The notes under the pieces were generated by a model. That model was not told where the DNA came from. It worked only from the letters and a program-made list of their open reading frames with translations, and searched no databases. Positions 4,785 through 59,421 of a stretch of 64,000 bases of DNA are shown one piece after another; the first letter of the stretch is position 1; each line of letters begins with the position of its first letter. Source of the stretch: Haliotis asinina (Eukaryota > Mollusca > Gastropoda > Lepetellida > Haliotidae); assembly GCF_037392515.1 (NCBI RefSeq), contig NC_090280.1, positions 76,737,004-76,801,003 of the forward strand, read 5' to 3'. The translations under genes and the position numbers were made by a program.

Positions 4785-4920
4785 CTAAATGTCCACAACA
4801 TCTGACAGTGTCTGGACAGCATCAGAGGCATTGGATGTTGTCGATGCTGTTGCTGCTAAGGTTGTGTTGGCTACCGTCTTCACCACCTCTCGGAGCTCAT
4901 TGACTTCAGATTCGATGCTC
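4785..4920 (-). CDS. GOLGA3: GOLGA3 terminal coding exon, residues 1615-1659 and stop
   Basis: The acceptor CATGATAG joins in phase to the GTATGTG donor of the previous exon. Encodes an Ala/Thr/Ser-rich end finishing SDVVDI and a TAG at 4785-4787. Poorly conserved, as in vertebrates. Confidence 0.8.
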
Positions 4921-7900
4921 CTATCATGGCAATGTGATATACATCAGTGACACACAAGGTTTGAGTGAAATGACAGTGAAATTAACAATGGTTATCACTC
5001 ACAATATGCAGATAGATAACTGAGGCTCAGTAATGGACTATAATTGCAACCACACCACAAAATGTATGTGAGTAAGAATGAAACATTACATTGTGCAAAC
5101 AAAACAGGCACTGATTAAAACTAGGATCAAGAGGGTTGAGACACACATGTGAGTATGTTGTTTACATGGCAGTTTTATTAGTCAGGAACTGCATCAGCTG
5201 CTTACATCTTGATCTAATACACAACAATAAGAAACAAACTTTCTTACTTTATATTGAATATCAACTTGTCTCCAGAACCCATCCATAATTGCTAATGCAA
5301 ACTAGGTAAACTGATAGACCAATTATTCGATCAACTGCTCCAGCAATCAATATAATTCTTTATTTATGATTATGTCATCCATGTTGCATTGTGTGTGTGA
5401 CTGTTTGTATCCGCCCTGACCTCCCTCAGATTTCTTAGGCCAGCCCTCTTTGTTTAAGATGGATACCCCATAAAAAAAAATATTCTGGCTCTAAGTTGAC
5501 CAGCGCTTGTTTTACCTCCTAATACCAGGTAGGGTAACTGCAAGTACAATGTCTTAACCTCTTTGAGCATTCTGTGATCAGAGATTGAATCACTGACCTG
5601 TCACAGCTCCCATACAGCTTTATGACTTTCTTGTTTGTTCTTTAACACTGCACTCAGCAATATTCCAGCTATATAGCAACTCAGTGAGCCTGACAACCAG
5701 ATCCCTTCACAACAAGCATGGGATGATGAAGACCAAATCTAGCGCAGATCTATACCATACAAACATTCATGGATGAAGTGTAATCTGGTTGGAACACAAA
5801 TGGTAAAATAGTGTCTCCAAATCATTTAAAAATGAAATCTCTGATGTGTAATTGAAGAAGCACATACCTCCAGCTCATGTTTGAGGAGTGGACAGTGGTG
5901 GTGTGGACGTCCATCTGCTTCTGGAGTCCGGAGATCTCGGACCTCAGTGAGCTCAGGCAGGTTTGAAGATTGTCCAGGGGTCTGTACAAGGGAGACAACT
6001 CCATACATACACACCTCACAAGAAATTGTACTTATAACCAGTATTATTATTAACCAGTATTATTAAAAGATTGCTATTCACACAATGAATGACAATTGCT
6101 ATTCACAATTAGTAAACGATACTGCAATCTTTCTTTGAAAGATTCCAACCACACTGGAAATACTAGTACTATGCTGGAGAGTATACAGACATTTTCTGTC
6201 TCTACTAGCGTGCATATGGATATATTGTGGGTATGCTGCAGTGTATGGAAATTCTGCCCACACTGGAGTTTATACTCCAGTACAGACAGAAAATATCTCT
6301 ACATTCTTCATTTAAATTGAGCAGAGAAAGAGTAACAGGTTTTATGTTGGAATATAAGACCTGTAATGAAATTGTGTTGTTGGTTTTTGCATAACACCAC
6401 ACTCAGCAATATTTCAGCTATATGACAGCTGGCTTTAATTGAGTTGGACCAGACAATCAGGTAATCAACATCATGAGCATTGATATATGACATGAGTCTG
6501 ACCACAAGATCACGTTAGTCACCTCCTTAAAACAAGCATGGGCTGCTGAAGAACAGTGAAGTTACTTACTTGCTTTCTAGGGCCTTCACAGAAGTGTCCT
6601 GTAGGAGTCTCTCAACGGCCTCCAGGTCAAATGATGGGGCTGGGAGTGGGGTAGAGGTGTCAAAGTTGACCTGTGTTCCCTTGTCCTCACCGCTGGATGT
6701 GACCAGCCCATCACCTGCCGCCATCTGAAGCTCTTTCTTCTTGGAGATGATCTTCTTTGCAAGCTGCAGATTTGTAGTTACCACAATTATGTGTGCCAGT
6801 ATACCTCAAGATCTTCACATGACACAAATGACTCCAATCATAGGCATCAAAATGAGTGAAAAGGCAATCACCATTCTCTTATACAGACATAAAACGGCAA
6901 AGAACAAAAGCCTGGGTTCTTGGGGGTCTTTTACTGCAGATTTACATTGATTTCAAATGCTTTCAAAATGAAAGAAACCTGTAGATCCGCAGAAAATTAG
7001 TATGTCTGGTCATACCACTAGCTTCACAAATCATTGGTAAGTAGTGAGTGAGTTTAGTTTTACGCAGCACTTAGCAATATTCCAGCTATATGGAGGCAGT
7101 TTGTAAATAAGTGAGTCTGGACCAGACAATCCAGTAATCAACAGTGAGCATCAATCTTTGCAATTGGGAATCAATGACATGTCAACCACGTCAGAGAACC
7201 AGACAACCTGATCCTGTTAGCCACCTCTTATGGCAGGCATGGGGAAGTAAAAAATAATACATACGTCATTTAAAATAACATAATACCAATTGAACATGTA
7301 TCTTACAAACTTCAAAACAGAATGAAGCATGGTGAATCACTACATGAAATAAAAAACACATATTTGAAGTTGAACTTTCATTTCAATTTTATGGATATGG
7401 TTAAACTACCACCAACAATGTTTTGGACAAATATCCTGAATCAAACAAAAAGAATATGAACTGCTCCCCAACCTTGTGGTGCTGCACTGATGACTTGAGG
7501 GCACTCCGTAGCTCTGTGACTCTGGTCTTCTGAGTCAGCTTGTCCTTCCTAATGGCTGCCATCTCAGCTTTCAGAGTATCAATCTCCTCTTGTTTTTCCT
7601 GTAAGTGATGGCATGTATGAGGCTTGGACATTTCACACCATGGTCAGCAATGGTCCAAGTCTTTTACAAAAACAGTATTGGCATTGGATCCAGATCCCTA
7701 TGATCGTTCAGAAAATGACAAACTGATCCGTAAAATCATCCCTTACATCAGTAGATGAGATGGTTAATACCATAATACCAAAGCTACTTTAAGGTTGTCT
7801 GTAAATAATGAAGTCTGAGCAACACATTGGTTATTGACATCATGAGTATTGGGCGAGATGCATCATGCAGGTCTGCCAGCCTGATGATCAGATCCCATCA

Positions 7901-10900
7901 TTTGCCTCTTTATATGACAAGCTGTTGAAGACCAACTGGAGTCTACATCTTCCAGTGTTAGTTTGGGACACAGGCAATATTGGGACGGTGCTTCCTGTAC
8001 ATGCTGAACATCTATCAGCATCCTGCTCTCATGACATTTTACCATGATGCCATCACCTTAAAGTTTCCTAGATAACAGAAAAGTGAAGTTAGAGCTGTGT
8101 GTACTGACCTGTAGGGTTTTCCTCATGCTTTCCAGCTCGGTGTGCTGCCGGAGCTCTGCCAGTCGAAGCTGTTCCTGCAGCTGGTCCACCTCCACTGACT
8201 TCTGTTGCAGCTGCCACTGTAAGGACTGCAACGCAGCATACATCATCTCATGGCATCATGCATAGCACATAATATACATTATTTTCTGATTTTGCATTAA
8301 TGCATTGAATGAGTACTCATTTGTAAGTACTCATTTGTACAAAACATTTTAACCACCCACACTTGTATCGTTAACCAACTGTTACACTTGATGTCTGTTC
8401 TGGAACTCCAGTAACCACTTGATTCTATTCCTATCTGAACTTTGCTACACAACAGCCAAACCTAGTGCTTCTTCCACCTGGACCTCCTCAACCACACGTA
8501 AATCTACTACTCCCTGAACGTCTCCTACCTGAATCTGCTCCATGATGAGGGGGTTGCGGGCGATGTTGTCTGCAAGATCCCGCCGCACCCTCTCCAGCTC
8601 CTGCTCCAAACCCTTGTTGTGTGACGAGAGGCTGGTCACTTGAGCCTGGTGGCTCAACACGGTCTGTCTGCTTGAATCCAGGTCAGCCTGTAGCTGGTTC
8701 AGTGTTGCATCTCTTGTCTGCACATCCTGTCGCAACTGCTCCAGGTCCTGCTTTGAAGCATCTGCCTGTTTCTTCAGACGTTTGTTCTCTGATATCTTTG
8801 TCCCAATCTGTGGTAAAGAACAGCTTTTAAACTGTAGGTTTACAAATATTATTTAACAAACTATATCCATGTCCCTATGCCATCATGTTTACTAAGGCTG
8901 CGTACCTCAACCAGCCTGTTTCGTAGGATTCCCCTACCTTTCGGCTTCCTGGGATCCCTCTTTACATGAGCTTTGTAGGATCCCTTTACCCACTGGCTTC
9001 CTAGGTAACCTCTACCCACTGGCTTTCTATGATCTGTCTACCTATTGGTAAGGACCCTACCCACCTGCCTGCTTCCTAAGATCCCTGTACCCACCAACTT
9101 TGTGAGGTCCTGTACCCTCTACATTAATGCTTCACAATGTCAGCAACCCTAGCTTCTTGATGCCTGTCAACCCACCTGCTTCCTGAGGTCCCTCTGACCA
9201 TCCTTCTCTTTCTGCAGGAGGTCCTCGAGACCCTGGATCCGGCGAAGGTAGTCTTGCTGGATGTTGTCCTGTCCTGCCATGGCATCAGTCAGCTGGGCAT
9301 GGATCTCCACCAGGGAGGACTCCCTTCGTGCCAGAGCCTCCTCCAGCTGCGACACATGCTGCTTCAAGGAGCTGTTGTTCTGCACCAAACCTGTAACAAA
9401 CCCATCCACTTACACAGGGCTTGAGACATACCTTTTTCAGCTTGGAATTCCCACAACTGTAAACTTTGATTTCCTAAATAAGTAACCCAGTTAAATCTCC
9501 TTATTAGTGTTATATACTCTTAAAAAAAGTAGGGGATAATGAGAGAGTGAAAGTGTTTAGTTTTACGTTGTGATCAGCAATATTCCAGCTATATGGCGGC
9601 AGTCTGTAAATAATCAAGTCTGACCAGACAAACCAGGGGATAATGAAGTTTCAATCTGGATAGGAAATGTAAACGTTAGCAAATGTTTCAAGGACAGACA
9701 TCTTATGAATGCACCACCATTTCCTTTTATTACCACCCCTAAACACAATGCATGATATGTATGTGCACAACGCAGTAGCCCCATACACGTGCATGAGATC
9801 CTGTGATTTTGACGTTTTTTCAAGAAGGTTGAGAAATCACTTAGAACATTAATTTTGACACTCATCTTGCATCACACATTTGTTAGTGTTTGTTTCTAGT
9901 TGTTTGTTTTAAAATACAAATCGTACACATGCAAATGACATGCCATACACCAATCATCTTTCAACAGCGACTACATACAAATAACTATGGTTGTAAGGAA
10001 GTGCAAATGGTGATTAACACTCAAAACATTCAATAATATCGTATCAACACTGATTGACTCCGATAAATCTGCTAAATATTTTTTATCGTGAATAAAAAAA
10101 AAAGATGATCCCCTACTTTTTTTAAAGAGTATACTTCAAAGTCTAAAAATGAAAAAAGAAAACAAATAAGTCCCACATCCGCTTACGACAATAACAGGAA
10201 ACAATTAAACATGATATGCCATGTGACAACCTATGTACCATCCCTCCACGAACCTGCCAATCTCCCTCGCTCCTTCTCCAGCTCCAAGGACAACTGCTGA
10301 TTCAGCTCATCTGTCTTCTCCCTCTCACTTTCTTCCTCTCTCGCCTGCTGTAGAGCTGCATCAAGAGCAGACAACTCTTCCCTCAGTGTGGCTACTTCTG
10401 TTTCTTTGGCATGTTGTAGAGCAATAAGTTGATTGTGAAGTTCTTGTTGTGATAAACGGGATGTTGACAACTCAGTGGCCAGAGTCTGGTTTGAAAAAAA
10501 TCAATGTTCAAGTTTCATGTGAGGCTACCACAACTACACCAAAAACAATCTATGTTTGTTGATGTCAGCTGGTATATACGATATTTCCTGATATTCCTCT
10601 CCTACTACTTCCAGAGATTCCACATACGTGACTTTTGAGTTTCCTTTCCTACTGTTTCCAACCTGGACATCCCCCTCAATGAGCTCCTCCCTATCTGTTT
10701 ACTGAGTCCCCATCTGCTTTCTGAGATCCCCCATTATCAATTTCCTGTGGTCCCCCTAACATGTATCCAAAGATTTGCCCGAAATTTGCATCCACATTTC
10801 TCCTTACCCCATCCACTATCTGCTTCCAGAGAATCCCCAAAAGGAATAACTGAAATTCACCTGAATATCAAGACACACCACTAACCTTGAACAATGATTG

Positions 10901-13900: not shown

Positions 13901-16900
13901 AGTGTAGACAACTTGCCAGATTGGACGGATGCTGTTTATGAAAGCTTCTACAGTACATGATTCTCTAACCATATGGGCTTACCATACCATATGTTTTACA
14001 AGGGTTTCAGTGCTGTAGAGGCTGTGCTAAACTTACCCTATAAGCAATTTTGGCAGTTTTAAGGGATGACCACTCACTCTGAGAGAGTATGGTTTTACAC
14101 ATTTAGCAAAACTGCAGCAATGGCAAAGTGGGGCATCAAACCCAAGATAAGTGAACCCTTTAACAATAAAGTAACTGAGATGGACTTGGTATTTGATAGC
14201 ATTCCAGTTATATCACTACATGTCAGGTGAATGTGAGAAGAAAGTCAGTGCATGTCTTGAATCTGGTCAGCACAACCTAATCGTCTTGCTCAAGTCTTTG
14301 GTAACAAGGTTAGTAAACATGCAAAAGTTCTCACCTGTGAATAATCATGTGTAGCACCTGGACTTGGAAGATTTGTGTTTGCTGCTTCAGGAAAAACTGG
14401 AGTTGTCCCCCCTGGAGTTTGTGTGGTAGGAGTTGTCCCCCTTGGGGTTTGTGTGGTGGGAGTTGTGGCTCCTGGAATTACAGGAGTTGTTCCCCTTGAT
14501 GTGTCTAGCGCAGGAGTTGTGGTCCCTGATCCATCAGAGGCTTTGAGTTTCTTCTCGGCCTCAGCAACAATCTGAGCAACAACATCTGGTGATGCTGGAG
14601 TGATGTCTTTGTTACCTGAATATGACAGCAACAAAAGTAATTTGGTAGTTTTGTTTACTGTCTATTGCATATTCAGTAATATTCCAGGTATATGGCGGTG
14701 GTCAGCAAACAATTGAGTCTGGACCAGACAATCCACTCATTAACCGCAACACGATCACTTGAGTCAACCAAGTCGGTGAGTCTGACCACCTGATCCCGCT
14801 AGTCCTGACTTATGAGAAGTCTGGGTTACTGAAGATCAATTCTAACATGGATGTTCATGGGCAATAACAACAGTGATATCCCAAAGTGACTTACACAAAC
14901 TAAGAACAATGTTCTTTCATACAACTCTTCTCCATTCTTATTGTGTAAAGTCAATATTATTCAAAAAGGTAAGAAACTGTTCATATTCAGTTTTCTTCTT
15001 CTTCACCTTTATATTCTAAATTATCAAGGAGTGTTTTACAGATAAGTGAAGTTAAGCTGTAATGCTATATAATATCATTATTGTGGAAGGAGCGTCTGAA
15101 CTGTAGCAGAACTTTGGCAGGTCATGGTGCACTATTTGGACTAATCTAGAGGTCCATACAACTTATCCAAAATGCTGTGATACCTCAATTCACCTATAAC
15201 AGATCACTGTACTTGATTCAGACAGATCAAGGCTAAGGTAATCTTCTCATCCATCACACTGATGAATAAGACTCACCTATGACAGACCACTGTAATCGCA
15301 GAGCTTCTGCAACGGTCTCAAAAGAACTGTTTTCCTCCCCCTCAGGGGCTGGTTGTTTGTTTGGAGGCGATGATGTGGTCTCAGATGGCATGGTGGTGAC
15401 AGCAGTTGACGTGGAGTTGATAACTGTGGTTCTCCCCACAAACTTCCGTTTCTTCTTGGAGACGTGCTGGCTGACAGCTGCAGTGTTAGCAGTAACCTAC
15501 AGCAAGGCAGAGGAGGGATACAGTCTCTTACATTGTGAAATGTTCATAGAATATAAACAAGTGTTGAATCCATGAGACTCACACAGAGGAGGGATACAGT
15601 CTCTTACATTGTGAAATGTTCATAGAATATAAACAAGTGTTGAATCCATGAGACTCACACAGAGGAGGGATACAGTCTCTTACATTGTGAAATGTTCATA
15701 GAATATAAACGTGTTGAATCCATGAGACTCACACAGAGGAGGGATACAGTCTCTTACATTGTGAAATGTTCATAGAATATAAACAAGTGTTGAATCCATG
15801 AGACTCACACAGAGGAGGGATACAGTCTCTTACATTGTGAAATGTTCATAGAATATAAACAAGTGTTGAATCCATGAGACTCACACAGAGGAGGGATACA
15901 GTCTCTTACATTGTGAAATGTTCATAGAATATAAACGTGTTGAATCCATGAGACTCACACAGAGGAGGGATACAGTCTCTTACATTGTGAAATGTTCATA
16001 GAATATAAATGTGTTGAATCCATGAGACTCACACAGAGGAGGGATACAGTCTCTTACATTGTGAAATGTTCATAGAATATAAACAAGTGTTGAATCCATG
16101 AGACTCACACAGAGGAGGGATACAGTCTCTTACATTGTGAAATGTTCATAGAATATAAACAAGTGTTGAATCCATGAGACTCACACAGAGGAGGGATACA
16201 GTCTCTTACATTGTGAAATGTTCATAGAATATAAACGTGTTGAATCCATGAGACTCACACAGAGGAGGGATACAGTCTCTTACATTGTGAAATGTTCATA
16301 GAATATAAACGTGTTGAATCCATGAGACTCACACAGAGGAGGGATACAGTCTCTTACATTGTGAAATGTTCATAGAATATAAACGTGTTGAATCCATGAG
16401 ACTCACACAGAGGAGGGATACAGTCTCTTACATTGTGAAATGTTCATAGAATATAAACAAGTGTTGAATCCATGAGACTCACACAGAGGAGGGATACAGT
16501 CTCTTACATTGTGAAATGTTCATAGAATATAAACGTGTTGAATCCATGAGACTCACTGTCAGAACATGATACTGGGACTTATCTTGGAGTGAGTGGGTGG
16601 GTGAGTGAGTGGTTGAGTGAGTTGTACTCATGTGGGGAACTGAACCTGGGTCTTAGATGTTCAAACACTTTAACCACTGGGCTATCCCTCCTTGCCTCCT
16701 ACTTATGATTACAGATGAAAAGTTGGATAAAAGAATAAAATATTGTGAAAAAAACTATTTGTTTTCACATTCTTATGTTATAAATTTGGACAAATCGATA
16801 ATTTTTACAGCCATTTGTTGTAGACGGGCCAAACATCAGTCTGTAAGCAAAGTTTAGACGAATGCCTGTAATAACATACAATTTCCACAGACCAGTATCC

Positions 16901-18430
16901 ACAAAGCATCCTTGGAGCTTCAAAAGTTACATTTATGAAAAGTTCACAGGGTTCACAGAAACTCACAGATTGCAACTGATGAATCAAAGTCCCTGGCTAG
17001 AAGTCTTTGGAAGTCAAGATGTGCTTGTCTCTCAATGTAGGTGAAACAAATATTATTGTGTAAGGTAAGACGAACCTGTGACAGGTACGCTATGTCTGCT
17101 GTGGCTGTGTGGGGCACACAGTGCCCATTCTGAGAGTCGGTGAGTTTGATGAAGCTGTCGTCGGGGTTGATGAGGTATCGCTGGTGTGGTGGACTGCTTG
17201 AAGAGTCAGACCACACTGGGTCAACTTGATGCACAACAGGCTGAGGTGTGTATGTCTGGTAGAAGCTTGCTGAAACACAAACAACAGAAAATACCAGCTG
17301 TCTGCAATTCCCTCAAGACTGGATGTCAAAGGCAAATGTGTATTGATGTCACCATGTTTATGATGAAGTTCAAAAGAAGCTTCCCTAACTGCAACTGCTT
17401 CAGGACCCAGATCCAGATGCTCACAGACAAGCACCCTTGTAGTCATTCCAAACTCATAAAAGAACACACTTTATCCAGCCTCTATGATTAGTTGGCAGCA
17501 CATCTGTCCATGCCCAATGTGTGCGGGTATTTTGGGAGGACAGTCTTCTACCAAGGCTGGACCAACTCTTTGAAACAATCTTAGAAAAGTCATATTCAAT
17601 AAGTGTGTGAAAATTTTGCCCACAGCTACATGGCAGAGCTCTTCCTCTTCGGTAACCATTCCAAGGTTTGCACCAAACCATGTGATAGAAATAAACACAT
17701 CCTAACCTCATGAACCTAATGAGTGAAAACATGTTATCTTGGTTAAGTTTTAGTAACCTTTGTCCTTTGGCCTCCGCTTCTTTATGGGTCTCACCACATA
17801 TAACCACGAATCATAATATACAGTTACGAATTCAAAATTCAGAAACACACTTGCAAACAATCTGTTTATCAAATTTTCTAAGTCTGTTGTAGACTTTCTT
17901 CCACATTTCAGTCTTGGAAACAACTGACCATGTGGCCATCTCTTTATGGTGTATTCATATATTCCATCAATGTCACATAGGGAACACCAAAAACGGATAT
18001 CAATCATTGTAACCTTGTGTGGAATCCAACCTGGACCTTCAGCCTGATTAGCAAACATTTCATCCACTAGGCTACCCCACCCCTGCATTATTGATATAAA
18101 CATATGAATGCAATTGTGAGATAACTGACAATGAACCTCTACAGCAAACATTCGTATAAGTGTGTAACATTTAACACTTGATAAAAATCAGTATTAATAA
18201 CTTAATACACCAAGCATTACAAAATGATCTTGTGATACAAATGAGGAAAGGAATGATCCCCAATTTACCAGTGTACCAGTACTGTTACATTGTTTCAGCT
18301 GCCAGGTTGGCAAATGTGGTAATAAATCAAATCCTCATTTCCTTTTCAAATGTAAATTCCTCCCATATTACACAATTTGTTGCAGTCACCAATATTACCA
18401 TGGTTACAATCTATCTCAAGAACTTCCACT

Positions 18431-18472: not shown

Positions 18473-20165
18473 ATTGATTTTTTCCTCATAAAGAGAGGTT
18501 ATAACTGATCTTCTGGACACAGCAAGCCAGTGAAACATTTGCATAGATCTACAGCGCATGACAGTTATACTCAGTAGATAATATTGGTGCCATTATCTTG
18601 ATTGTTCAAGCCCAGTGGGAGGACTAGAGGATGGCTGCATATTGCACATCATGAATGTATTACCAGTCTATGAAATAGCGTCTGGCAGGCAGCATGCCGC
18701 TTGCTAGTAACATGGCAGGCTTAAAACTTTATTTTGAAGGCGGCCCTGTGTGCCAATACATTTTCCAAGGGTATATATGTGGCCATGTCACTGACTACAG
18801 GAAATATTTCGATAATGATTTACAATTGTGGTAACTAGATGATGTTTGCATAGTTCATGATCGATCAACTTCCACTGATCAACCTGCCTATTTACCCAAC
18901 ACTAAACATGCTAAATGTGACTGGCTTTCTTTCAGCCAATGAATAATGTCATTCTTTTCTGATGGTAGTGACACTAAATGAATTAACAGTGACCACAAAG
19001 TCATGGTTTTAAGTTTAAGTTTAACTCACTTCAAGTAATTCATTAATTACTTTCTTTTAACACCATGTGTCAATTTCCTATATTCAATGTCCTTTTTGTA
19101 AACACAAATGAAAAAAAAACAATGCAGATAAAATTTTGCATCCTGAGGGACGTAAATAAAATATCATTCATTGTGGCACACACTTTTGACAAGAAATAAA
19201 GCAATATATGCACTTCACCTTTTTGTTACTCTCACAGGGTTGGTAGGGTAGGCTAGTGGTACAAGTGCTTACTAGTTCTGTCAAAGATCGGAGTTCAATT
19301 CCAAATGTTGGTACAAAGAGTAAATCCATTTCTCTGGTTCACTACTGTGATATTGCTGGATCTTACTGTGATATTGCTGGAATCTTACTGTGATATTGCT
19401 GGAATACACTAAAAGCGGTGAAAAACCATATCACACACTCATTTGTTTACAGGACCTTCTTATTCATGCAAGTTTGGTAAGGACCCTTGAGACTAATCAC
19501 TGAGGTCATCTTGACACTAGTTTTGCAGGTCATGGCCAAACCCCAATATGCAGCCTCAAGGACTTCACCAGCACTAGATACTCCATGATGATGAAGCCAG
19601 CTACTATAGTTTCCAGGGCAATGATAAGCACACATGCAGCTGATATTTGTGAAAGCTATCAAATAGCCAGATGGGGCAGCTAACTAACAATAAAAACAGA
19701 TTCACACATTGGTTGTTTTCAGGCACAGCTCTTGACAATTCTAGATAAGCTGTGCACACACAAACATGGACTCAACTACAGTGGAAAATACACAACAAGG
19801 GCTCTAAGTCTTGCTCATGAATGTAAATATTCATAACATTATTGTGAGCTATTGTGGCATGTTATACTCTTGGAGCAGCACATGCACAAAAAACATAAAC
19901 ACCTCAAATAGTATTTTACACATTGAAAGAATTATTTTAAAAAATTATCTATACCATGTGCAAAAGTACCAAAATGTCTGGAGTCAAAAGAGTAAAATTC
20001 TATTAAAGGCCCTAAACAAATGATCAGTAATACTAACATATAAGCAAACATTCTATGACTCAAAAAGATTACTGGTATCTGAAGAAGCCAATGCAAGCAA
20101 GTCCACACAAGATACAAGGGATTAGATAAAACTCTTGAAGTGAATGTCAAGTTTTCACCTCACAC

Positions 20166-20257: not shown

Positions 20258-23200
20258 TCAATCTCACGCGGACATAAATGACATCAAAATGACATATTTA
20301 CAGAGAATATGCACGACTCTATTCCAACATACTATGAGCACCTATTAAACAATCTTGTCCACTTTTTCAAGCAGCATGGACTAACAGTTACCATGGATAC
20401 TTGTCAGTAGGTAGCATATTTTTTGATGAAATTGTTTCTTAAATTTATCGCACATGACTTTGCTCTATCTCACTACTAATGTAAGCTGCAATGTTTTTCA
20501 CATGTCAAAACAGCTACAAAAAGAACATGGACATTTATGGCACATAAACTTTTCTGAAAGGAAGATAGGTGTGTGGAAGTGAAGCCTGGCTACAGAAACC
20601 CGAGTACATTTATTAGCTCACAGCATTCCTGTACAGATGTTAATGTATCGGTATCTACGAATTGTTGAACATTTCCATCTGTTGCCATGGTTTCAGCTTG
20701 TGCTGATATGCACAGGTGTTGCTGAACAATATGCAAAACAGACAGTAGAAACAAAATGTAAAATGCACACATTTGACTCAGACATGAAACATGAGAGATA
20801 TCAAGTTTCTTACATCAGGCCAAACAGTTGGTTTGCTTAGCGTGTTCTGGTGCCTTATGCTCTGAATATCGATCCACAAAGCGTTTGCAACATTAAGACC
20901 AGTCTTTCAGCTAACACTGGTTATAGCCTTATATCAGTCCTTCTTCAACATAAAATTACTGTGCTAAAGATACATCTTTACAGATGTGTGTCTATGATAG
21001 CAAGATCCTCAACATTGAGGAAATCAAAAACAAGAATTGAATTTGGAAAAAATTATTAGCCTACATCTATCTATCATTTTTAGCTTAACATATGTAAATC
21101 CAATAAAAGTGCCTATACTGGCAGAGATTGGGAAAGAGAACTTTGACAATGGGCCATTTTCAGGATTATTAGCCATTTTATGAATTTGGAATGAGCCACA
21201 GCCCTTGCATCAATAGTAAAATTCAAAGTTTTAAAGGGCCATTTTTCATTCAAACGTGCAAAATGACCCATGGCCCCTGCCTTTCCCATTCCCAGTAGAA
21301 CAGGCTTTCAGCAACCCATGCTTGCAAAACAAAGCGACTATGCTTGTCGTAAGAGGCGACTAACGGGATCGGGTGGTCAGGCTTGCTGACTTGGTTGAGA
21401 CATGTCATCAGATCTATGCTCATGCTGTTGATCACTGGATTGTCTGGTCCAGACTCGAATATTTACAGACCGCCGCCATATAGCTGGAATATTGCTGAAT
21501 GCAGCGTAAAACTAAACTCACTCACTCACTCCCATTCCCAGTACTGGGTATGACAGACCAAACCAACTTGAAACTGTACCTCCACACTTAAACAATATTT
21601 CTTTAAAACCATATACCTAATATTTACATATTTAAATCAGAGAGAATAAGATCATGATAATGCGTCATATGAGCAATTATTCAATGACTGGTCATAATTG
21701 TCTGGAATTTTATCATGTTAAAAAATTGCTACTAGCAGTGAACATGTTTTCATTGTGTTATTCCTGTTAACCATATTAAAAAATATCATTCCTTAATATA
21801 ATGAATCAAATAACATGATTGATGTCTTCAGATAAAAGGAATGTTTGACAATGATTGAGCAGATTGAATAAACAAACTAATCAGATGGAGCTTTCATCCA
21901 TCTGTTGAAATGATCAAGGTCAAATTATGATTATCATCTTTAACAGGGCTGGCGAGTGGCCTGGTAGATAAGGCTAAATAGAAAGGGTGAAATGTTTCTC
22001 AGGCATCGGTATGTCACTTTTATTTGCGCACGTAACAATTTTTATCGCCATTTATAAAAAAACAGTTTTGACTTGGCAGCATCCTGATTATCCATTTGTC
22101 CACTATCAAAATGGGCGTCTGTAAGTATGAGTGTGAGTGAATCTACTGCTCATAAACACGTGCTACACTTCCTATGCTGTATTTCTGAGAGGAAAGAATA
22201 AAAATGTGCCCCTCCCCCATCACTAATTTTTTTTTATCAAATTTTTTTTATAAAAGTCCTACTGCGCTTATCACTTTTGAACAAAATGTGCCTGAGAAAC
22301 ATTTAATTTCTTTATGCAGCCTAATACCAAGCTGTTTGATAACTGTTTGCTCCTTAAAACAACAACACGCCATTGGAGTAAGGACACGAGCCTCTGTGTC
22401 ACTTGACCAGCCATATTTAAACTATTTGGCTCCTCTGTACTCACTGCTCTGATCCACATGTCATTCATACGTAGATTATGCTACAGCGATACAGACACCT
22501 TCATTGTGTCCATAAACAATTTTACACACATGCATCCTTTATAGTATTCATGTTATCAGCTGCAGTTACTTTCTGAATATATTTCCATATCATTTATAGA
22601 TTCAACCAAAAGGCTTCATTATAGTTTACATATAAAGATATTTCAATAGGTTTTGGCTCATAAAACTATTAAAAGCTCATTCCAAACTTGTAATGACACT
22701 AAAGAATGCCTTACAAAAACTGACCATATTATGAAACGTTCCACAAAGTCAAAATATTGTCCATCTCAAGCAAAATCAATGACATCTTGAAAGAGGAGTA
22801 TCACAGCACTGTAAGTTTCTGGAGCAGACTACTTACATCCAATGAATGAGTGAGTGAATTTAGTTTTACACCAATTTTATTACTATTAGCAATATTCTAG
22901 TAATATCACGACAAGGACACCAAAAACAGGCTTCACACATTGTACCCATGTGGGAATCGAACCTGATCTTCGGCATGATGAGCCGACGCTTCGACCACTA
23001 GTGGGTAAATAAGTTAAGTTTTATGCCAACTTCAGCATTTTTTTCCAGCAATATCAAGGTGGGGACACCAGAAATGCGCTTCACACGTTGTACCCATTGC
23101 GGACTTGAACCTGGGTCTTAAATGTGATGGGTGGACTCTTTCCCTACTCGGCTACCCCTTAAATCTAAGTGAGTGAGTTTAGTTTTGCTCCGCACCCAGC

Positions 23201-41233: not shown

Positions 41234-41273
<40 letters not shown>

Positions 41274-41985: not shown

Positions 41986-42040
41986 TTTGTATTTAAAGCA
42001 TGTAGGCTATTTGATTGTGCTAATCTTCTCAACTTTACAG

Positions 42041-42170
42041 AGAGTCGGTGAGTTTAGCTTTACGCCGCATTTACCAATATCCGAACAATAAATGGGCTTC
42101 ACACATTGGGCCAATGGGGGAATCGAACTCGAGAACTCAGTGTTAACCACTGGCCTATCCTGCCGGCCCC
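42041..42170 (-). repeat. tRNA-derived SINE (T family)
   Basis: GGTGAGTTTAGCTTTACGCC tail, ATGGGCTTCACACATTGGGC, GGGGGAATCGAACTCGAG. Confidence 0.85.
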
Positions 42171-42384
42171 TCATCTTAATAACATCAACTTCCAACTTAA
42201 GGAAATCCAGTAAAGATAACAAAGTTATGTCGGGAGGAACTAAATCGTTTCTAGTGAAATGTAATGGTTGTATTGAACAATCATGGCTACATAGAGATAG
42301 TGAGTCAGCTAGGGTTTTGCGGCGTTTGAAGAAATATGGGTGAACAGAGAAGAGACTGGTTCTAATCGCCAAGTGGATAATAAA

Positions 42385-42603
42385 GCGGCGGTCTGTAAAT
42401 GATCGAGTCTGGACCAGACAATCCAGTGATCAACAACAAGAGCATCGATCTGCGCAATTGGGAACCGATGACATGTGTCAACCAAGTCAGCGAGCCTGAC
42501 CACCCGATCCCATTAGTCGCCTTTTACGACAAGCATAGTCGCCTTTTATTGCAGGCATGGGTTGTTGAAGGCCTATTCCACCCCGGGACCTTCACGGGTC
42601 TCA
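42385..42603 (-). repeat. SINE (L family) with internal duplication
   Basis: Well-preserved body. The segment TAGTCGCCTTTTA occurs twice (about 42515-42550), lengthening the head side. Confidence 0.88.
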
Positions 42604-42852
42604 CAGGAAGTTATCTATTATCTATGTAGTGTATAATATACAAAACTGTGTTCCACAGGATCTATCGCTTGTGTGAGATAGGACGATATCTCCTAGGAGA
42701 TGTCGCTTTGACAGTAGATTTTGCACAATGCCCTGACAATGCAATCACGTCATGAACATCGTTGCACTGCAAATCTAATGCCAGTGCTGTGTTCAGAGAT
42801 GTACGGACATTTTTCATTGAAGGCTAATGAAGAATGATTTTGGATGACAAAT

Positions 42853-43139: not shown

Positions 43140-46111
43140 CTGATTGTGAAGGCAACATCTGGTTATTAACTGCATATAATGGCACAACAGATTGTTTGTT
43201 AAATTTAGTTACCTTCGCACTTAGCAAATATTTCAGCTGTATGGTGACATTCTGTAAATAATCGTGTCTGGACCAGACAGTCCAGTGATCAACAGCATGG
43301 ACATCCATCTACGCAACAGTCAGCGCGCCTGACCATCCGATCCCGTTCGTCGCCTCTTACGACAAGCATGGGTTGCGGAACATCAATTCTAACCCGGATG
43401 TTCACGGGTTCAACGGTTTCGTGTTTCTTCAATGAAACTGCTGACCAGACACGTAAACTTTAAATAACAAAGGAAGTCACTGTTACAATGAAGACACATC
43501 CACGACAACAAAGTTCAGTATACAGTCGCACCATCACCATCCGAGATATACACGAGTGTTATGAATTATATTATTTGAAACAGTACAGCACCTGTCCAAG
43601 GGCAAGCACCTAACATACAACGCACAACATATGATCCTCAGAAATAACACCTGTAACAGAGAAGGGACAACACCTGCCCCAGGACATGCACCTAACATAC
43701 AACGTACAACATATGACCCTCAGAAATAACACCTGTAACAGAGAAGGGACAACACCTGCCCCAGGGCAAGCGCTGGAGGCATAAAGTACAATATATGCAC
43801 AAATAAGATCTGTCCTGGAGAAAGGATCTGACACTCAACACCACCACGTAATATGCACACACCACCTGATAGAAAACAAACGTCTCACAACACCTGTTAC
43901 AGAGCAGAGACAACAGTTGTTCCAGGCCACGCATCTGACCGAAAACACTAGCAACGGAGAACGCACCTGATATACAATGTATGAAACACAACGTGCTCTT
44001 GTCCAAAAGCACTGATCAGACACATCACAAACAAGAGCACGCATCAGACACACACCACACGTGCATGGAGACGCATCAGACATACACCATCTGCCCGAGG
44101 ACACACATTAGACACACATTATCTGTCTCAGAACACGGATCAGACAGACAGCTTATAGACGCACCAGACACACAGTACCTGTCTCAGGACACGCATCAGA
44201 CCCACAACACCTGATAATATATATAAAAGAAACAAACAAACAAACAAAAAAACCCTCACGCACCTGCCTTATTCCCCCGGCATTAATACTGGACTGGTCA
44301 AGTGCGGTCAGTAGAGACTGAAGCTTTGTATCCACTGTCGACAGGAAGGATGTGAGGTTCTGGACAGAAAGTGATTACATTCGTATTAACTTCACCATCA
44401 ATGGGAGATGTAATTCATAGACACAGGGGGCGTGGCAAGACATTTGATGAACTATATCTGAAATTCATCATGTGTGTTCATAGCACCAACCATAGCAAGA
44501 TGTTAAGTACAACAATCTTCAAGTGAGTGAAAATTACAGCCTCAGTAGCTTGTGGGTGAGTGAGTTTATCTGTATGGCAAATTGCGGGTAAACACGTCTG
44601 AATCCAGTCTAAGTAAACTTACACTCGTTACCACTGAGTCTAACAAACCCTAGTAGGAGGTCGCGTCAGGTAACGTTTGAACGACCTGTGACCGTCCAAA
44701 CGCTAGAGGGTTAAATAGATTCAGACAACGGCTACTACATTCGTAACTACTCGTGTCATTTCGGCAAGCCGGATAGCGTCTTCTTGTAGGTCACGGAAAG
44801 AGACGAGTAGTTACGAATGCGGCTACTACTTAGGAATCGGAGGGACTTCAAAATATTTAAGTCACTGACATAGATCTCTCAACAAACAAAAATCCGCATA
44901 TTTTTTTTTTACCTTCAGTATGTCAGGGTTTCTGTTGACATGGTTACCATTAGCTAATATTTCCACAAGCTGACATCTTTGAATATTGCCAAAACCACTA
45001 TTTTCAGCGACTGTTTACTCGCCGTTGTCATGATTGTAACGAGCGCCGTGTGCATCACCAGTAAGTGCGCGTACGCTAAATAGCATTCGGAATCGTTCGG
45101 GTACGAACCTTTTCCAGATAACAAGTTCAAAAGGTATGTGCGAATGTCCACTTTCGCGATTTGGTAAGCTGTGTTCTGATTGGTCAATCTTAAAGTTTAC
45201 CCGACGCCACCTCCCATAAGGTTTTGTTAGACTCAGAAGTGGAGTGTAAGTACTGAGGTTAAGTTTACTTAGACTGGTCTGAATCAAGCAAACCAGTTGT
45301 TGAAAGACCAAGAACCTACCCACACATCAGGGGCACAAAGACAAACTAACAGCTCTCATTTTAGTCACAGTTTGCAAGCATGTGATGCTCAAGATGAGAT
45401 TGGGTCATTCATAGTCAGAATCAGTCAGATTGGTTGTACATGTATGTTTGTTTAACGCCACACTCACCAATATTCCAGTTTTATAGCGGCGCTCTGTAAA
45501 TAATCAAGTCTGGATCAGATAATCCAGTGATCAACATCGATCTACGCAACTAAGATACGATCACGTGTGTTAACCAAGTCAGAGAGTCTGACCACCCAAA
45601 ACCGTTATTCGCTTCTTACGATAAACATGGGTTGCTGATGACCAATTCTCGACCGGAGCTTCACGGGTCCGGATGTTCACGGACAGAGGTCACTCTACGC
45701 CTGATTTTTAACCAAAGAAATACCTACATCAAGCTCTGCCTTGGATGGCCTGTCTGCGGTTTCAACAGCAGCAACTACTCCTTCATGAGACTTCGGCTTC
45801 ACATCCTTCATTTCGTACTGACGTATTTCCGCTATCCGTTCCTGCGACTTCCGGTGACTGTTAACGATATTTTGGAGGTGATGGTTCACCTTTTCGCTGT
45901 CGCTGGGGAGGAAACGACGGCGACACTGGGGACAAGCGTACGGATTCCTGTACGTATCACGAGCTCCTTGTATCGACTGCTGAAGACATCGCTTACAGAA
46001 CGAGTGGAAACAGTTATAGAGCGTCACTGGTTCGGTCAGAAGCTCCAGACATATTGGACAGTTTAAGTCCTCTGTCAGTTGGTCATCCACTTCAGGCGAG
46101 GCCATGGCCAT
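43016..46111 (-). CDS. TRIM-type RING-finger protein, probable E3 ubiquitin ligase (3' end unresolved)
   Basis: Exons 45728-46111 (128 codons), 44264-44359 (32) and 43016-43139 (41 plus one base) join in phase with GT/AG borders. The N-terminal C3HC4 RING has CPIC at residues 18-21, C34, H36, C39, C42 and CPQC at 60-63, plus the TRIM-like LLTEPVTL and HSFCKRC. RING domains recruit E2 enzymes for ubiquitin transfer. No B-box follows in the visible exons; the second exon (LSTVDTKLQSLLTALDQS) looks helical and the third is acidic, Ser/Pro-rich. Two in-frame ATGs (46111, 46105) are possible starts; both have a purine at -3 and G at +4. If the third exon is not spliced, the frame stops at 42939, giving about 226 residues. 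Which TRIM or RNF subfamily is not clear. Confidence 0.8.
43194..43412 (-). repeat. SINE (L family)
   Basis: CTTAGCAAATATTTCAGCTG, GTGTCTGGACCAGACAGTCC, GGATGTTCACGGGTT. In the RING gene intron, sense to it. Confidence 0.88.
43601..44220. repeat. Decaying tandem array (82-bp then ~32-bp units)
   Basis: The left part is two copies of an 82-bp unit (CAACATATGATCCTCAG recurs 82 bp on). The right part breaks into ~32-bp units like CCTGTCTCAGGACACGCATC plus AGACACACA. It fills the intron beside the RING gene's second exon. Confidence 0.8.
44264..44359 (-). CDS. Second exon of TRIM-like gene
   Basis: Acceptor CTTTCTGTCCAG, donor GTGCGTGAG; 32 whole codons NLTSFL...GGIRQ. Confidence 0.75.
44604..45277. 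mobile_element. DNA element with ~75-bp terminal inverted repeats
   Basis: CCAGTCTAAGTAAACTTA and TGAGTCTAACAAA at the left recur inverted at 45195-45277. Interior non-coding; it contains an ~80-bp TACTCGT palindrome, i.e. a nested insertion. Superfamily unknown. Confidence 0.78.
44739..44819. mobile_element. 81-bp palindromic element (TACTCGT family), nested
   Basis: CATTCGTAACTACTCGTGTC at the left, inverted GAGACGAGTAGTTACGAATG at the right. Confidence 0.85.
45448..45671 (-). repeat. SINE (L family)
   Basis: CACTCACCAATATTCCAGTT, AAGTCTGGATCAGATAATCC, GGAGCTTCACGGGTCC. In the first visible intron of the RING gene, sense to it. Confidence 0.88.
45728..46111 (-). CDS. RING exon of TRIM-like gene
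   Basis: Encodes the whole C3HC4 RING plus a basic/helical linker ending RPSKAELD; phase-0 donor GTAGGTAT. Confidence 0.85.
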
Positions 46112-46789
46112 CACGACTTGTGTATTGCGTGTTCAACTAGTATCCTGTCTACATATGGCGAGTGCTGAGCATTTCCTCAGAGTCGCAATAATTAATTCAC
46201 ATGGTCGTTGAGCATCCGATGACAACCATATTTGGGCGAATCCAGCTGCAATGAAACACCAATGTATCTTGACCTACGTGAAGGCGATATTGATATGTGA
46301 CCCATATTATTATACTAAAAAGAATACGCACGATTTTCGATAGAACCTTTGTGTTTTAAAAATAAAAAAAATATCCATTTTATAATTAAGTTATTTGGGA
46401 GTATATTCGGGTAAACTGCGAATTTTAGTTAACAGAAAATATAAATATATATTACAGGTTAAAGAGTTACGTCCCTTCAGTATCCCTGACCAATGTATGA
46501 TAAGATAATCTGATTATTAGTACCCTTGCCTCATGCATGCTTAGATCCGTTTCGATTCTTGTTGTGTACTACGCCTCCTCAATGAGTTATCTAAGAAAAC
46601 TACATTCACATGTGCGAGTATGTTTTTGTGGTAAGAGAGGTTGATACGGCGAGGTCGGTTCAAAGGTCAGTGGGACTTATGATAACAGATTTGCGTCACA
46701 GCAGCCAAGACGACTGAGGACGAATCGGTGTTTTTGAAGGATATTGAAACAAAGGTAAGGGAGCATGACTCCATTTCCCCATATACATG

Positions 46790-47464: not shown

Positions 47465-48135
47465 CTCACTGCACTTCACGGCGTGTACATTACGTCAGTA
47501 CTTCTCCATGTGTGTATAACTTCCGATTCTTCACGGTGTGTGTGTAATGTCAATACTTCACCATGCACATTTAACTTCAGTTCTCCAGGATGTGCATATA
47601 ACGTTAACAGTTGGCGGTGTGTGTATAACATCAATACTTCACCATACGTGTATGACGTCAGTTTTTCACGATGTGTATATAACGTCAGTTCTTCGCCAAT
47701 GGGATATAAAGTCATTTCTTCAATATGTGTATGTAACGTCAATACTTTATGGTATGTACGTAACGGGAATTCTTCACCATGTGTATATAACGTCAATTCC
47801 TCACCATATGTATATATAACGTCAGTTTTTCACAATGTGTATATAAAGTCAATAATTCACGGTGTGTAACGTTAGCACTTCACCATGTGTGTATAACGTC
47901 AGTAATTCATAGTTTGTGAACGTCAATTCTTCGCCTTATGTGTTTAACGTCAGTACTACATGATGTGTGTGTAACAGCAGTCCTTTACCATATGTGTATA
48001 ATGTCAGTACTTTGCCATGTGAATCAAACGGCAATAATTCAGGGTGTGTGTATTAAGTCAATGATTCACGGCGTATATAACGTCAGTTCTTCACGATGTG
48101 TATCTAACGTCAGTACTTCACGCTGTACATTTAAC
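47465..48135. repeat. 27-bp minisatellite with ACGTCA in many units
   Basis: About 25 diverged units of the form TTCACCATGTGTATATAACG plus TCAATTC. ACGTCA occurs 11 times, one being the full TGACGTCA at 47653-47660. Units of nine codons keep several frames open on both strands. Confidence 0.9.
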
Positions 48136-52827: not shown

Positions 52828-53008
52828 AGAGTGAGTGAGTGAGTGAGAGTGAGTGTGAATAGTTTTTCACACCACTTTTAGCAATATTCCAGCAATATCA
52901 TGGCAGAAGACTCTGGAAATGGGCTTCATGCATTGTGGCGATGTACAGAATTGAGCCCGAGTCTCCAGTGTGATCAGCAGATGGTTTAACCATTAGGCTA
53001 CCCCTCCA
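52828..53008 (-). repeat. tRNA-derived SINE (T family)
   Basis: GTGAGTGAGTGAGAGTGAGT tail, CCAGCAATATCATGGCAG, ACCATTAGGCTACCCCTCC head. Just beyond the ZNHIT3 stop, so possibly in its 3' UTR; sense. Confidence 0.85.
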
Positions 53009-53218
53009 AAGCTCATCACCATAGAACACCATGGACCATCAACAGATCATACATAGATCATTAACAGATCATCAACAGACCAATGACCAATCATTACATG
53101 TATAGATCCCAGATTTGACTGTCACTCACACATTCTTTCATATAATGTCCGTCTCATTTTCGACAGCTGTTTCCTTGTTTTTCAATTTAACACATCTAAT
53201 CAGTTTCCTGAGCAACTG

Positions 53219-53391
53219 TCATGTCTGCTCTGGTTCTATGACCTTCAAGCACTCGTCGGCAAATTCAGTAAAAATGGGTTCCTTCATGGCTTGCTCCATG
53301 AGTTTGCCAGGGTTTTCAGCACTCACCAACGCCGACATCATCACACGTAAATGGGGGTTCTGGAGAAGGGTCTTCAGGTCCTCGGACTCTC
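53219..53391 (-). CDS. ZNHIT3: ZNHIT3 terminal coding exon
   Basis: Acceptor CTTCTGTACAG. Encodes ESEDLKTLLQNPHLR through the conserved C-terminal helix and a TGA at 53219-53221. Confidence 0.95.
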
Positions 53392-56300
53392 CTGTACAGA
53401 AGACAGGAAAACACATGAGTAATTCCAAGTCCACTCTCACAAGAACATGAAACTTGTAACTCACTTTGTGGTTCAAAATGATTTTCACAGTACTCTTTGA
53501 ATACGGTGTGTGAAATAGTTTCCAAATACTTTTAACCACTCGGACTAGCTGTGTCTGAACGTTACTAGCCCCCAAAATAATTCACTAGCCCAAAATTGGA
53601 ATGTAGAAACTAAACAAGTGATTACAAAAATAAATGGGAATTAGGTATTGTTGGCATGATACAGGTTTCATCAAACTGATGAACATATATATGATGAAAA
53701 TGATTTAAAAGTGTATTATAACTTAACCAGTTGGAAAGCGTGATATATTTACAAAATGACCCTATGAAAATTCACTAGCCAGTCACACCAGTGACTCCGG
53801 AGATTTACTGGCCCCACTGGATCTTTACAAGCCTCAGGCAACAAGCATCAACAGTCACAAAAAAAAGTTGAGATACATCATACCAAGTTTATCCAGCAGG
53901 TGTCGCTCCACTTTGTCTTCCGTTGTCTCGAGCTCCGTGTCTGACAGCTCACCCTCCTCTGTAACCATGGTGACAAACACATGTATTTGGTGTTTCAAGG
54001 TTTCAGCAGTTCTTATAACGAACAATATCAGTATGTGTGGAATGGCTGATCTCTCCTGTACAATGTGAGCAAAATTGGGGCAATGTACAGCTTTCGATAG
54101 CATTTAAACTGTATCCAGCTTGATGTTGTATATTCAATAGTGAGCTGTGGGTCTTGTCTGAAGTACCAGACTAAAATGATACAATGGAAGCTGTCAGTAC
54201 TGGCATTTGTCCAATCTGGCAAGTTGTCAACACCAGCAAAAACTCTCAGTCCCTTCCATGGCTAACAAATTTATCATCACTTAAAAGCTCTGCAATTCGG
54301 CAGTTGTCAATTATGGATGTTGGCATGAAATGGTGTAGTGTCAACCGGATGTGTATTGTCCCGAATTAGAAAATCATTCTCAAGTTGGAGTCAACCTTGT
54401 GTGCAGACTCTTCCAGTTTTGTCACAAGCCCTAGTGTACAGTACATAACCCTGTGCACTTAAATGAACCAATGAATATGTTGGTAAATGACCACATGGTG
54501 GCCATGTGAATACATGCAAACACCAAGTTGAGGGTACAGAACGTCCAGTACACTTGGGCAAAGTACTATGACTGTGTCCAAGCCCACCCAGCCGTGAATG
54601 GGCACCTTGTTAGGATGAGAAATGAAAATTAACTCGGTGCGCTGATTGCCAGGGAGTTGAGAATATAATGTGCTGTTGAGATACCAAGGAAAAACCATCC
54701 CCTTGGCATGTACCTGTTGCATGGATATATGCACTATATAAATATCATATAGATAAAAAATAGAAAGATATCTTTGGTACCAGGCAGAGATATGTTGTAT
54801 ATTTCCCAAGGAGCTGATGAGTGAGTGAGTGAGTTTAATTTTACGCCGCATTCAGCAGTATTCCAGCTACATGGTGGCGGTCTGCAAACAATCGAGTCTG
54901 GACCAGACAATCCAGTGATCAACAGCATGAGCATCGATCTGTGCAATCGGGAACCGATGACGTGTCAACCAAGTCAGCCAGCCTTACCAACCGATCCTGT
55001 TGGTCGCCTCTTGCGACAAGTTGAGTCACCTTTCACGGCAAGCATGGGTTGCCAAAGGCCTATTCTACCCCAGGACCTTCACAGGTCCCCAAGGAGCTGA
55101 TACTGTAATTAGAGTGCACATAATTATACAGAAAGATAAATACATGATTATACCATCTGACAAAGCTGCAATAAAGGAATGAGAGTAATAAACAATAATC
55201 AGAAACAGTGGTCAAGTTTCTGTTGGGTAGTGCCGCCATTAAGCAGGTGCACATCTATTCATTCAACAAACCTTTCTGTTCCTGAATCCTTTCTTTCTCT
55301 AACATCTCAGACTCTCTATCCTTTCTGCTGGCATCCTTTCTCACACATGTGTCTGAAACGTAGGTTACAGGGCTTCAACCATTATAGCAATTGATTGATT
55401 GATTGATTGAGTGAGTGAGTGAGTGATTGCTTGCTTGATTGCTTGAGTGAATGAGTGAGTGAGTGAGTGAGTGAGTGAGTGAGTAATTGATCCCTGGTTT
55501 TGGTGTGACCACCTAACACTTTAACCACTAGACAATCCAACTGATGTCTCCTGGATTAAAATTATTACAGTTACATCCCAATGATTATAGTGCATCAGCT
55601 ATATGACATTTGCTGACCTAGACCTTACATGTACGTCACCGAAAAGCTGACATGACAGAGATCCAAGTTACAAGTAGCTGGCAACGACATACCTTTGTGT
55701 TTCTTGTAACACTGGACAGAACAACTGGAAAGAAAAGAAACAAAATAAATATAACACTAAACTAATTTTGACATTACTGTGAGATAAATTAACAGTGACA
55801 GGAATATTCCATAGGTCTACCCTGTTACCAGGATACAATGTTCATCCTTTGTAATCTCTTTAGATCAAATGATGAAAGTGTGGAATCTGTGATCGAGAAA
55901 CCTGTTTATTTACAAGTGGCAATTGACCACCATGCTTGGGATTTTACTGGGCACTTTTATCACCTGTCATCATCGCCATGTTCGCACAGGATCAAGTGGT
56001 TCCATGGTGATTGATTTAATTAGGGTGTAGCACTTCAACTAGTACTGCAGAGCGCATCCGTCTCACATACAAGAGGCGGTAGGTTTCGCATACATGCCTG
56101 TGACTGGTTACTGAGAACCCCAAACTTACATGCTGATAACCAGAATCATCAATAAGGGGATTCTAACTAAGATCAGTGTATCCTGGTGCATAAAAGGGAT
56201 GTAACTTTCAAATCATTCCACTAGAAGACTAACGGTTCTGATTTGCTTCATCTTGTTGGTCCAATACTTTTATGAGTCTATGACACTTATTTTCTTTCGT

Positions 56301-58109: not shown

Positions 58110-59210
58110 ATGTCACGTAAAAGCACAGAATTTGTCAGTGTACTTATCTCCGACACAAGTCACGGAAAGATTTTATTAGTGAACAATGATAACAAGGGTT
58201 TATGGCTGCCAACAGCAGAGAGGCACAAAAACGAAACTCTGAAATCCGTTGCCCTGCACTTGGCTGAAGAGGTACGCTTTCATGACTCACACCAATAAGA
58301 TCGTCTGCATGAAGTGAACACCGCTGACTTTTACTGACTTTTACAGGTCACACTGAAAACTAGTTTATCCACTATTTTGCTTTAACATGCGCATTATCTG
58401 GACTCAATTATGTAAAATTGTGTAGTAAGAATCTTCATGTTTAACAAGATACCAAAGAAAATGTTTCAAGGAAGTAAACCGGTTCAGTGATATCACAGAC
58501 ATTTATATTGTCTATATTCAAGACTTCATGTCACGGAATATTATCCCACAATCCTCCAGAGTTAAGAAATGTACATTCAGATTTTTTTCCTTTCGATCAG
58601 TTATTTATACTATTTTATTATTCTTAGGCCTGACCCGTGAAGGTCCCGGGGTAGAATAGGCCTTCAACAATCCATACTTGCCATAAAAGGTCACTGTGCT
58701 TGTTGTAAGAGGTGACTAACGGGATCGGGTGGTCAGGCTCGCTGACTTGGTTGACATGTCATCGGTTCCCAATTGAGCAGATCGATGCTCATGTTGTTGA
58801 TCACTGGATTGTCTGGTCCAGACTCGATTATTTACAGCCTGCCGCCATATAGCTGGAATATTGCTGAGTGTGGCGTAAAACTAAACTCACTCACTCACTC
58901 TTAGGGCCATCATATCTAGACATCTCCTGATCTTGATCTATCATAGTATAAAATGTATGTTAAGTTTTGTGTTATATATCATTAGGATTCAGATAACTTG
59001 AGAATTCATACATTCTATATTTAATACAAATGACATTGACAGTGCTGTCTAATTAATCAAAGTAATCTGAGACCACTTTCTTTCCTTTAGGTATGTGGAC
59101 AGAGGATAGCTTTGAAAGGCGTATTACGCACCAACATCACAAGATTTTCTCACCGACCTTCATCCACACATGTCATCTTTCTTACATCACCCCTTACAAG
59201 CATAGAACAG
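58110..59210 (+). CDS. Nudix-fold protein with degenerate Nudix box, first two coding exons
   Basis: Exons 58110-58271 (54 codons) and 59091-59210 (40 codons) join in phase across a GTACGC donor and a CTTTCCTTTAG acceptor. The start MSRKSTEFVSVLISD, KILLVNN and GLWLPTAERHKNETL lead into a helix HLAEEVCG placed where the Nudix box should be. Against the consensus GX5EX7REUXEEXGU, the Gly after LP is Thr, the REU is HLA, only one metal-binding Glu of the pair aligns, and the final Gly is kept. THVIFLTSPL fits the next strand. So the fold is recognisable but pyrophosphohydrolase activity is doubtful. Further exons are expected; a possible short last exon is LFYRCVSWDVAGD-stop at 60169-60210 behind a weak acceptor. 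Family member not identified. Confidence 0.65.
58629..58902 (+). repeat. SINE (L family), full length
   Basis: CTGACCCGTGAAGGTCCCGG through to TAAACTCACTCACTCACTC; short TCTTAGG duplication at both sides. In the Nudix gene intron, sense. Confidence 0.92.
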
Positions 59211-59348
59211 GTTAGTAGAAATTTGGAATTTAGTCAAATACTAATGGCATCATGAATGTATGAATATTCGATGGATTGTATTGTATTCCTTCATGAATTC
59301 AGTTCACTATTTGTGATCACTAGAATGAAAAAAATATAAACTTTGTTA

Positions 59349-59421
59349 ATTCTGGTGTCCCCTGCCATGATATTGCTGGAATATTGATTAAACCTGTGTA
59401 GAACCATACTCACTGACTCAT
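59349..59421 (+). repeat. SINE (T family), 3' part
   Basis: GTGTCCCCTGCCATGATATT, GCTGGAATATTGATTAAACC, ACTCACTGACTC. Sense to the Nudix gene. Confidence 0.8.

Follow-up and report, generated by a model that had tools for sequence, protein, structure and literature searches.

Introduction

Human Alu elements, which are short interspersed elements (SINEs), show an excess of sense copies in introns near exons, opposite to long interspersed elements (LINEs) and long terminal repeat (LTR) elements, and the scarcity of antisense Alu near exons has been attributed to cryptic splice acceptors in copies so oriented (PMC2533698, 2008; PMC3088655, 2011; these and the other papers cited are represented here by excerpts). 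In chicken, zebrafish and fly, an antisense bias in fixation is described for LTR elements, some LINEs and DNA transposons, and for the zebrafish HE1 SINE the excerpt gives no significant preference for either orientation in exonization (PMC2911107, 2010). Alu elements also show an excess of direct pairs and catenated clusters (CLIQUEs) with an orientation bias, according to the excerpted part of Cook 2011 (PMC3215922). Here, we describe the orientation of two SINE families, A and B, in 64,000 nucleotides of the gastropod Haliotis asinina (contig NC_090280.1, positions 76,737,004 to 76,801,003 of the forward strand; hereafter the window), which include a GOLGA3-like gene with SINEs in a markedly one-sided orientation, and in held-out introns of other genes.

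Intronic SINEs of H. asinina favor the sense orientation, as do human Alu elements, which are the closest precedent (PMC2533698; PMC3088655). In the excerpts, however, the Alu effect is restricted to distances of about 20-200 bp from exons, whereas no effect of exon distance was found here; also, the SINE tail here is (ACTC)n and not the poly(A) of Alu. With the transposable elements of PMC2911107, as excerpted, the SINEs share an intronic orientation bias of fixed elements outside mammals, but of opposite sign. Neighboring SINEs tend to be co-oriented, in part because new copies seem to insert beside older ones, which is reminiscent of what the excerpt gives for the Alu CLIQUEs (PMC3215922), although the setting here is a mollusc genome with microsatellite-like tails and small local counts. 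Among the open-access papers listed in our searches, read by title and the start of the abstract, none reported a SINE sense excess in molluscs.

Results

Intronic SINEs of other genes show a sense excess

SINE orientation was called by profile searches with two models, for families A and B, built from computed alignments. A sequence-only reading of the window had reported scoring every SINE by its (ACTC)n tail, which is impossible because many copies are 3' truncated or end otherwise. The held-out sample consists of 168 kb between the exons of 17 genes, which were selected on where their exons lie and how long their introns are, with the SINEs unseen. The strand of each gene was fixed by exons of three protein families (myosin head, PDE and tyrosine phosphatase), and each gene was assumed to extend between its matched exons; for MYO2, MYO3, PTP3 and PTP4, two distant matches on the same strand were assumed to belong to one gene. 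Two of the 17 genes (L041, L053) carried no SINE, leaving 15 with copies, and four split family B pieces were merged before counting, which brought the total from 88 to 84 copies.

We found 60 copies in the sense and 24 in the antisense orientation (71% sense; binomial p = 1.1e-4). The sample was enlarged in three batches with interim results seen (sense:antisense 37:15, 56:24 and 63:25 before merging), and the p values ignore this stepwise growth. With the gene as the unit, the excess persisted (sign-flip p = 0.008; gene bootstrap 95% interval 0.60-0.82), with 10 genes leaning sense, three antisense and two tied. When copies of the same orientation within 500 bp of each other were collapsed, the count became 42:23 (p = 0.025; sign-flip on the collapsed clusters p = 0.039). 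A second count in the same stretches with one family A 21-mer, allowing up to two mismatches, gave 12 sense and two antisense matches, against an expectation of 3.7 in either orientation from the genome mean. By family, the held-out copies divided into 39:9 for A and 21:15 for B (Fisher p = 0.029). The whole result covers 84 copies, 15 genes and three protein families.

A sense excess of intronic SINEs beyond the window looks real; it is moderate, at about 70%, and comes mainly from family A. That intronic copies run against the usual antisense trend, as had been noted for the window, was thus seen again in other genes. The sequence-only reading had placed genic SINEs "almost entirely" in the sense orientation (20:2); the direction replicates, in a milder degree.

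Two SINE families share a 3' end

The consensus of family A is about 163 bp long, with a weakly tRNA-like head. That of family B is about 250-270 bp long, and its long conserved middle, separate 3' tail and weak tRNA-like head resemble what the excerpt describes for the mollusc SINE Lgi-Nin-DC-SINE1 (PMC11121367). ARAGORN found no tRNA in either consensus at its default threshold, and only at a relaxed threshold a tRNA-Asp-like head in family A and a tRNA-Leu-like head in family B. From this likeness in description, family B may be a Nin-DC SINE. The last 58 bp are near-identical between the families (52 of 58 bases by alignment count) and both are tailed by (ACTC)n; from this common 3' end, A and B are presumably mobilized by the same LINE. 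Some family B copies, both in the window and in held-out stretches (L042, L043, L052), end in ACAA-rich instead of ACTC-rich tails, and some fit the model as two overlapping pieces, as if part of the element had been duplicated internally; both kinds are probably subfamilies.

Across the 1.143-Gb assembly, the family A 21-mer (up to two mismatches) is strand-balanced, with 25,189 forward and 25,220 reverse matches; no copy was found in viral_contigs. Among the first 100 matches listed, more lie on the plus strand after about 25 Mb; this may be an effect of the listing and was not used.

The (ACTC)n tail appears not to account for the bias

According to the sequence-only reading, antisense tails form tandem GTGAGT 5' splice donors, and selection against such decoys leaves the sense copies. 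The motif is indeed present where the tail is intact, as in the copy at 21294-21544, which has three. However, the predicted growth of the sense excess with the number of GTGAGT motifs did not appear. The held-out sense:antisense counts were 36:12 for tails with no GTGAGT, 24:12 for at least one and 9:6 for at least two (n = 84), so that the sense share goes from 75% to 67% to 60% (Fisher, none against at least one, p = 0.47). Nor is the motif general in the GOLGA3-like gene, where the tail read antisense contains a GTGAGT in five of the 15 sense copies and none in the other 10; one of the two antisense copies carries three and the other none.

The repeated tail donor, TGA|GTGAGT, is mediocre, with a score of 5.1 bits. 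Here and below, the splice matrices are generic, not trained on this species, and exons are only partly known. On one strand of the window, 337 of 4282 GTs reach at least 5.1 bits, and the best donor candidate for each of 11 exon frames of the GOLGA3-like gene scores 6.0-10.9 bits. Donor scores of individual copies were alike in the sense and antisense orientations (p = 0.83) and so fail to predict orientation. Families A and B carry the same tail yet differ in bias, B being near balance. The tail-donor model is not supported in this sample. Given the missing dose effect, the family contrast despite a common tail and the uninformative donor scores, we rejected the model, and consider a purge of antisense tails as decoy donors very improbable.

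Signals in the element body and the alternative of biased insertion

We tentatively prefer, with a probability of about 0.4, a reading in which the bias is due to selection against antisense family A copies via signals in the body of the element, not in the (ACTC)n tail. Selection as the cause and the body as carrier of the signal are both what we infer from a bias that is itself observed and a family difference of modest strength. Antisense family A copies would be purged through such signals, for which there are two candidates: weak cryptic 3' splice sites of family A, and a head-on conflict of a putative internal RNA polymerase III promoter of family A with the gene. The preference for this reading comes from the consensus sequences together with the human Alu precedent. 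In the family A consensus, the stronger acceptor-like sites are antisense (4.7, 4.2 and 3.3 bits, against at most 0.9 in sense), and in that of family B they are sense (8.5, 5.6 and 4.6 bits, against 3.2 in antisense); this is the direction needed for A to be biased and B balanced.

Several results weigh against selection through the element body. Within each family, sense and antisense copies are not told apart by their individual scores (family A, acceptor p = 0.26 and donor p = 0.37; family B, 0.37 and 0.75, respectively). In family A, the acceptors even trend the wrong way, with 1.71 in antisense and 0.39 in sense copies. Between the strands of real copies, the acceptor difference is small (A, 5.24 antisense and 4.60 sense; B, 5.41 antisense and 6.71 sense). 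The sense excess is not stronger near exons, as far as these are known: 14:7 within 300 bp, 10:1 at 300-1000 bp and 36:16 farther away or at unknown distance. No age trend was found in family A: in an 80-copy set, copies of high, middle and low score divided into 12:2, 15:5 and 9:1, the score mixing age and length. There are more sense matches of the 21-mer than the genome mean would give (12, with 3.7 expected), which is unlike a plain loss of antisense copies. Finally, the contrast between the families weakens once the GOLGA3-like gene is added, where the counts are 6:1 for A and 9:1 for B; with family B at 9:1 there, the contrast needs more data. As a model of its own, the splice acceptor has the right direction on the consensus but finds no support in the per-copy scores.

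Given the null results for splice scores, exon distance and age, and the number of sense copies relative to the genome mean, a preference at insertion that is linked to transcription may be at work instead. In transcribed genes, the machinery of the partner LINE would nick the template strand preferentially; copies would then land in the sense orientation without any need for selection. Candidate target site duplications, as flanking repeats of at least nine bases (some of 13-14), were found at 17 near-full-length copies, which is a raw count, and several of the 17 start with the tail-like CTC, TC or ATCA, as would be expected if the nicked strand set the orientation. However, A and B, with their common 3' end, presumably use the same LINE, but a clear bias is seen in A only, and template-strand nicking is so far hypothetical. 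Moreover, 13 tail-like target words (such as CTC, ACTC and CTCA) show no excess on the sense strand, where their share is 0.46-0.52 in the held-out stretches L035-L051; in the GOLGA3-like gene it is 0.23-0.53, with most words leaning against sense. Since the words are spread evenly over both strands of L035-L051, the targets tested do not predict the bias, and target-site composition as its cause finds no support. On balance, we count a preference at insertion as the second live explanation beside selection, possible but rather unlikely.

SINE orientation is patchy, probably in part through insertion at older tails

Over 103 kb, SINE orientation comes in runs (64 copies in 19 runs, permutation p = 0.0005). 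The same holds with the 58 strong copies alone (p = 0.004) and for the part beyond 30.4 kb (32 strong copies in 11 runs, p = 0.026). Nine consecutive minus-strand SINEs, one of them weak, extend over 41.8-55.5 kb, spanning a RING gene, a ZNHIT3 gene and the DNA between them. In the held-out sample, neighbors no more than 30 bp apart had the same orientation in six cases and the opposite in one, and those 31-500 bp apart in 13 and nine.

At 22829-23450 and 34070-34341, SINEs of the same orientation succeed one another head to tail, nearly without spacer; the copies of the first string are not independent of one another. New SINEs apparently insert at the tails of old ones. Genome-wide, there are 314 same-orientation core pairs at a spacing of 150-180 bp (186 + 128), many of them in tandem arrays among 100 listed; the 11 divergent core pairs are not comparable with these, as divergent pairs at such spacing need truncated copies. 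The exact tail-to-head pattern occurs at six places in the genome, three of which are one array.

These patches bear on a further explanation, in which SINEs insert at SINE tails in the same orientation, inverted neighbors are lost, and patches that match the strand of the gene by chance give the 14:2 counted by the sequence-only reading in the GOLGA3-like gene. The runs over 103 kb, the string at 22829-23450 and the held-out neighbors agree with it, and the direct-pair excess and catenated clusters of human Alu, as excerpted, are a precedent (PMC3215922). However, patchiness alone yields no mean sense excess across unrelated genes, where the excess persists also with genes or collapsed clusters as units. 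Local spread therefore explains the one-sidedness of the window only, and as the source of the bias we find it doubtful. About equally doubtful is a combined account, with insertion along transcription by template-strand nicking, a bias independent of splice signals and exon distance, and local spread at tails thereafter. Together with selection through the body of family A, which we prefer for the bias itself, shared orientation of neighbors would account for the extreme ratio of the window, which is more one-sided because neighboring copies tend to share orientation, partly by new SINEs entering old tails.

The GOLGA3-like gene and its SINEs

The GOLGA3-like gene occupies 4785-30400 on the minus strand, within the limits set by the sequence-only reading. 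We take over the name GOLGA3 from that reading. The strand is backed by long open reading frames, with plausible splice site candidates near their ends; coding frames run from about 25041 down to about 5822, and a large coiled-coil exon frame lies at 13631-10920. Pfam gave only a sub-threshold Fez1 match for the gene, and a search of solved structures with the large exon gave no match. The putative first intron, also proposed by the sequence-only reading, would lie at 25.0-30.4 kb on the minus strand.

Profile searches found 15 minus-strand SINEs (sense to the gene) and two plus-strand SINEs between 4785 and 30400, a count that includes one weak minus copy (24468) and leaves out weak minus fragments at 14072 and 23399. 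The antisense pair of the sequence-only reading was recovered and its ratio nearly so, with a difference in the exact number of sense copies. Binomial p values are 0.0042 for 14:2 and 0.0023 for 15:2, both uncorrected for a region chosen because it looked biased.

All sense copies lie on the minus strand. Five family B copies (5625, 6363, 7030, 7776 and 9540) span 5625-9642, and another family B copy at 14629-14869 adjoins an exon frame, as judged from splice site candidates. Two family A copies lie at 16621-16705 and 17958-18089. The string at 22829-23450 consists of two family A copies, one family B copy and a weak 3' remnant resembling A, each of them sense, and is followed by the weak family A copy at 24468-24598. 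Three sense copies (B at 25196, A at 26619 and B at 28058; 25196-28212) fall in the putative first intron. The antisense copies, on the plus strand, are a family A copy at 19231-19455, whose tail was read as lacking GTGAGT, and the family B copy at 21294-21544, whose three GTGAGT motifs lie on the gene strand. Tandem arrays lie at 15508-16556 and 23680-23986, both within this stretch, and at 47473-48126, with units of about 75, 38 and 27 bp.

The remainder of the window and its surroundings

The gene-poor stretch (SINEs at 30843-42609) holds eight plus and seven minus copies by profile search, the same count as in the sequence-only reading for 30.4-42.9 kb. Its description of intergenic copies as balanced stands when they are pooled, but not along the sequence, where orientation comes in runs: the plus copies lie at 30.8-38.5 kb and the last three minus copies at 41.8-42.6 kb. 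Two minus-strand family B copies (43171 and 45421; 43171-45677) lie beside the RING exon at 45695-46132, and minus-strand A (52832) and B (54802) copies (52832-55098) flank the ZNHIT3 C-terminal exon at 53219-53581; both domains were confirmed by Pfam. On the plus strand, B (58630) and A (59349) copies (58630-59437) lie beside a proposed Nudix exon of 67 amino acids, for which Pfam gave no match. The two of two sense copies claimed for each of these genes do lie beside those exons on the strands given, as placed relative to exons; the Nudix gene itself was not confirmed.

At 61791-62066, on the minus strand, there is a weak DUF3504 match below cut-off, and just beyond the window, at 65111-65455 on its scale (L032, minus strand), a SCAN- or gag-like match that does not reach the curated cut-off (SCAN E = 5.6e-5). 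On the left side (L034), weak Tc/mariner-like transposase matches lie about 7.1-6.7 kb from the window (Pfam E = 0.02-0.05, below cut-off). A minus-strand open frame of 1365 codons, made of short SESIHGRLESSRIHGM-like repeats, lies about 14.9-19.0 kb from the window, and probably represents a tandem array and no gene.

Among the protein families used for the held-out sample, myosin-head matches are dense at G000:C5 73.57-73.88 Mb, on both strands and some with internal stop codons, and at least 160 tyrosine phosphatase exon matches, several of equal score as in a recent expansion, lie on G000:C7 and C9.

Discussion

How strongly repeats in introns are biased in orientation serves as a standard measure of the hidden harm that transposons do. 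A sense excess that extends beyond the neighborhood of exons, comes mostly from one SINE family and is, in this sample, unlinked to splice scores departs from what the mammalian picture predicts. If the excess is confirmed genome-wide, population data could separate selection from a preference at insertion in a non-model animal.

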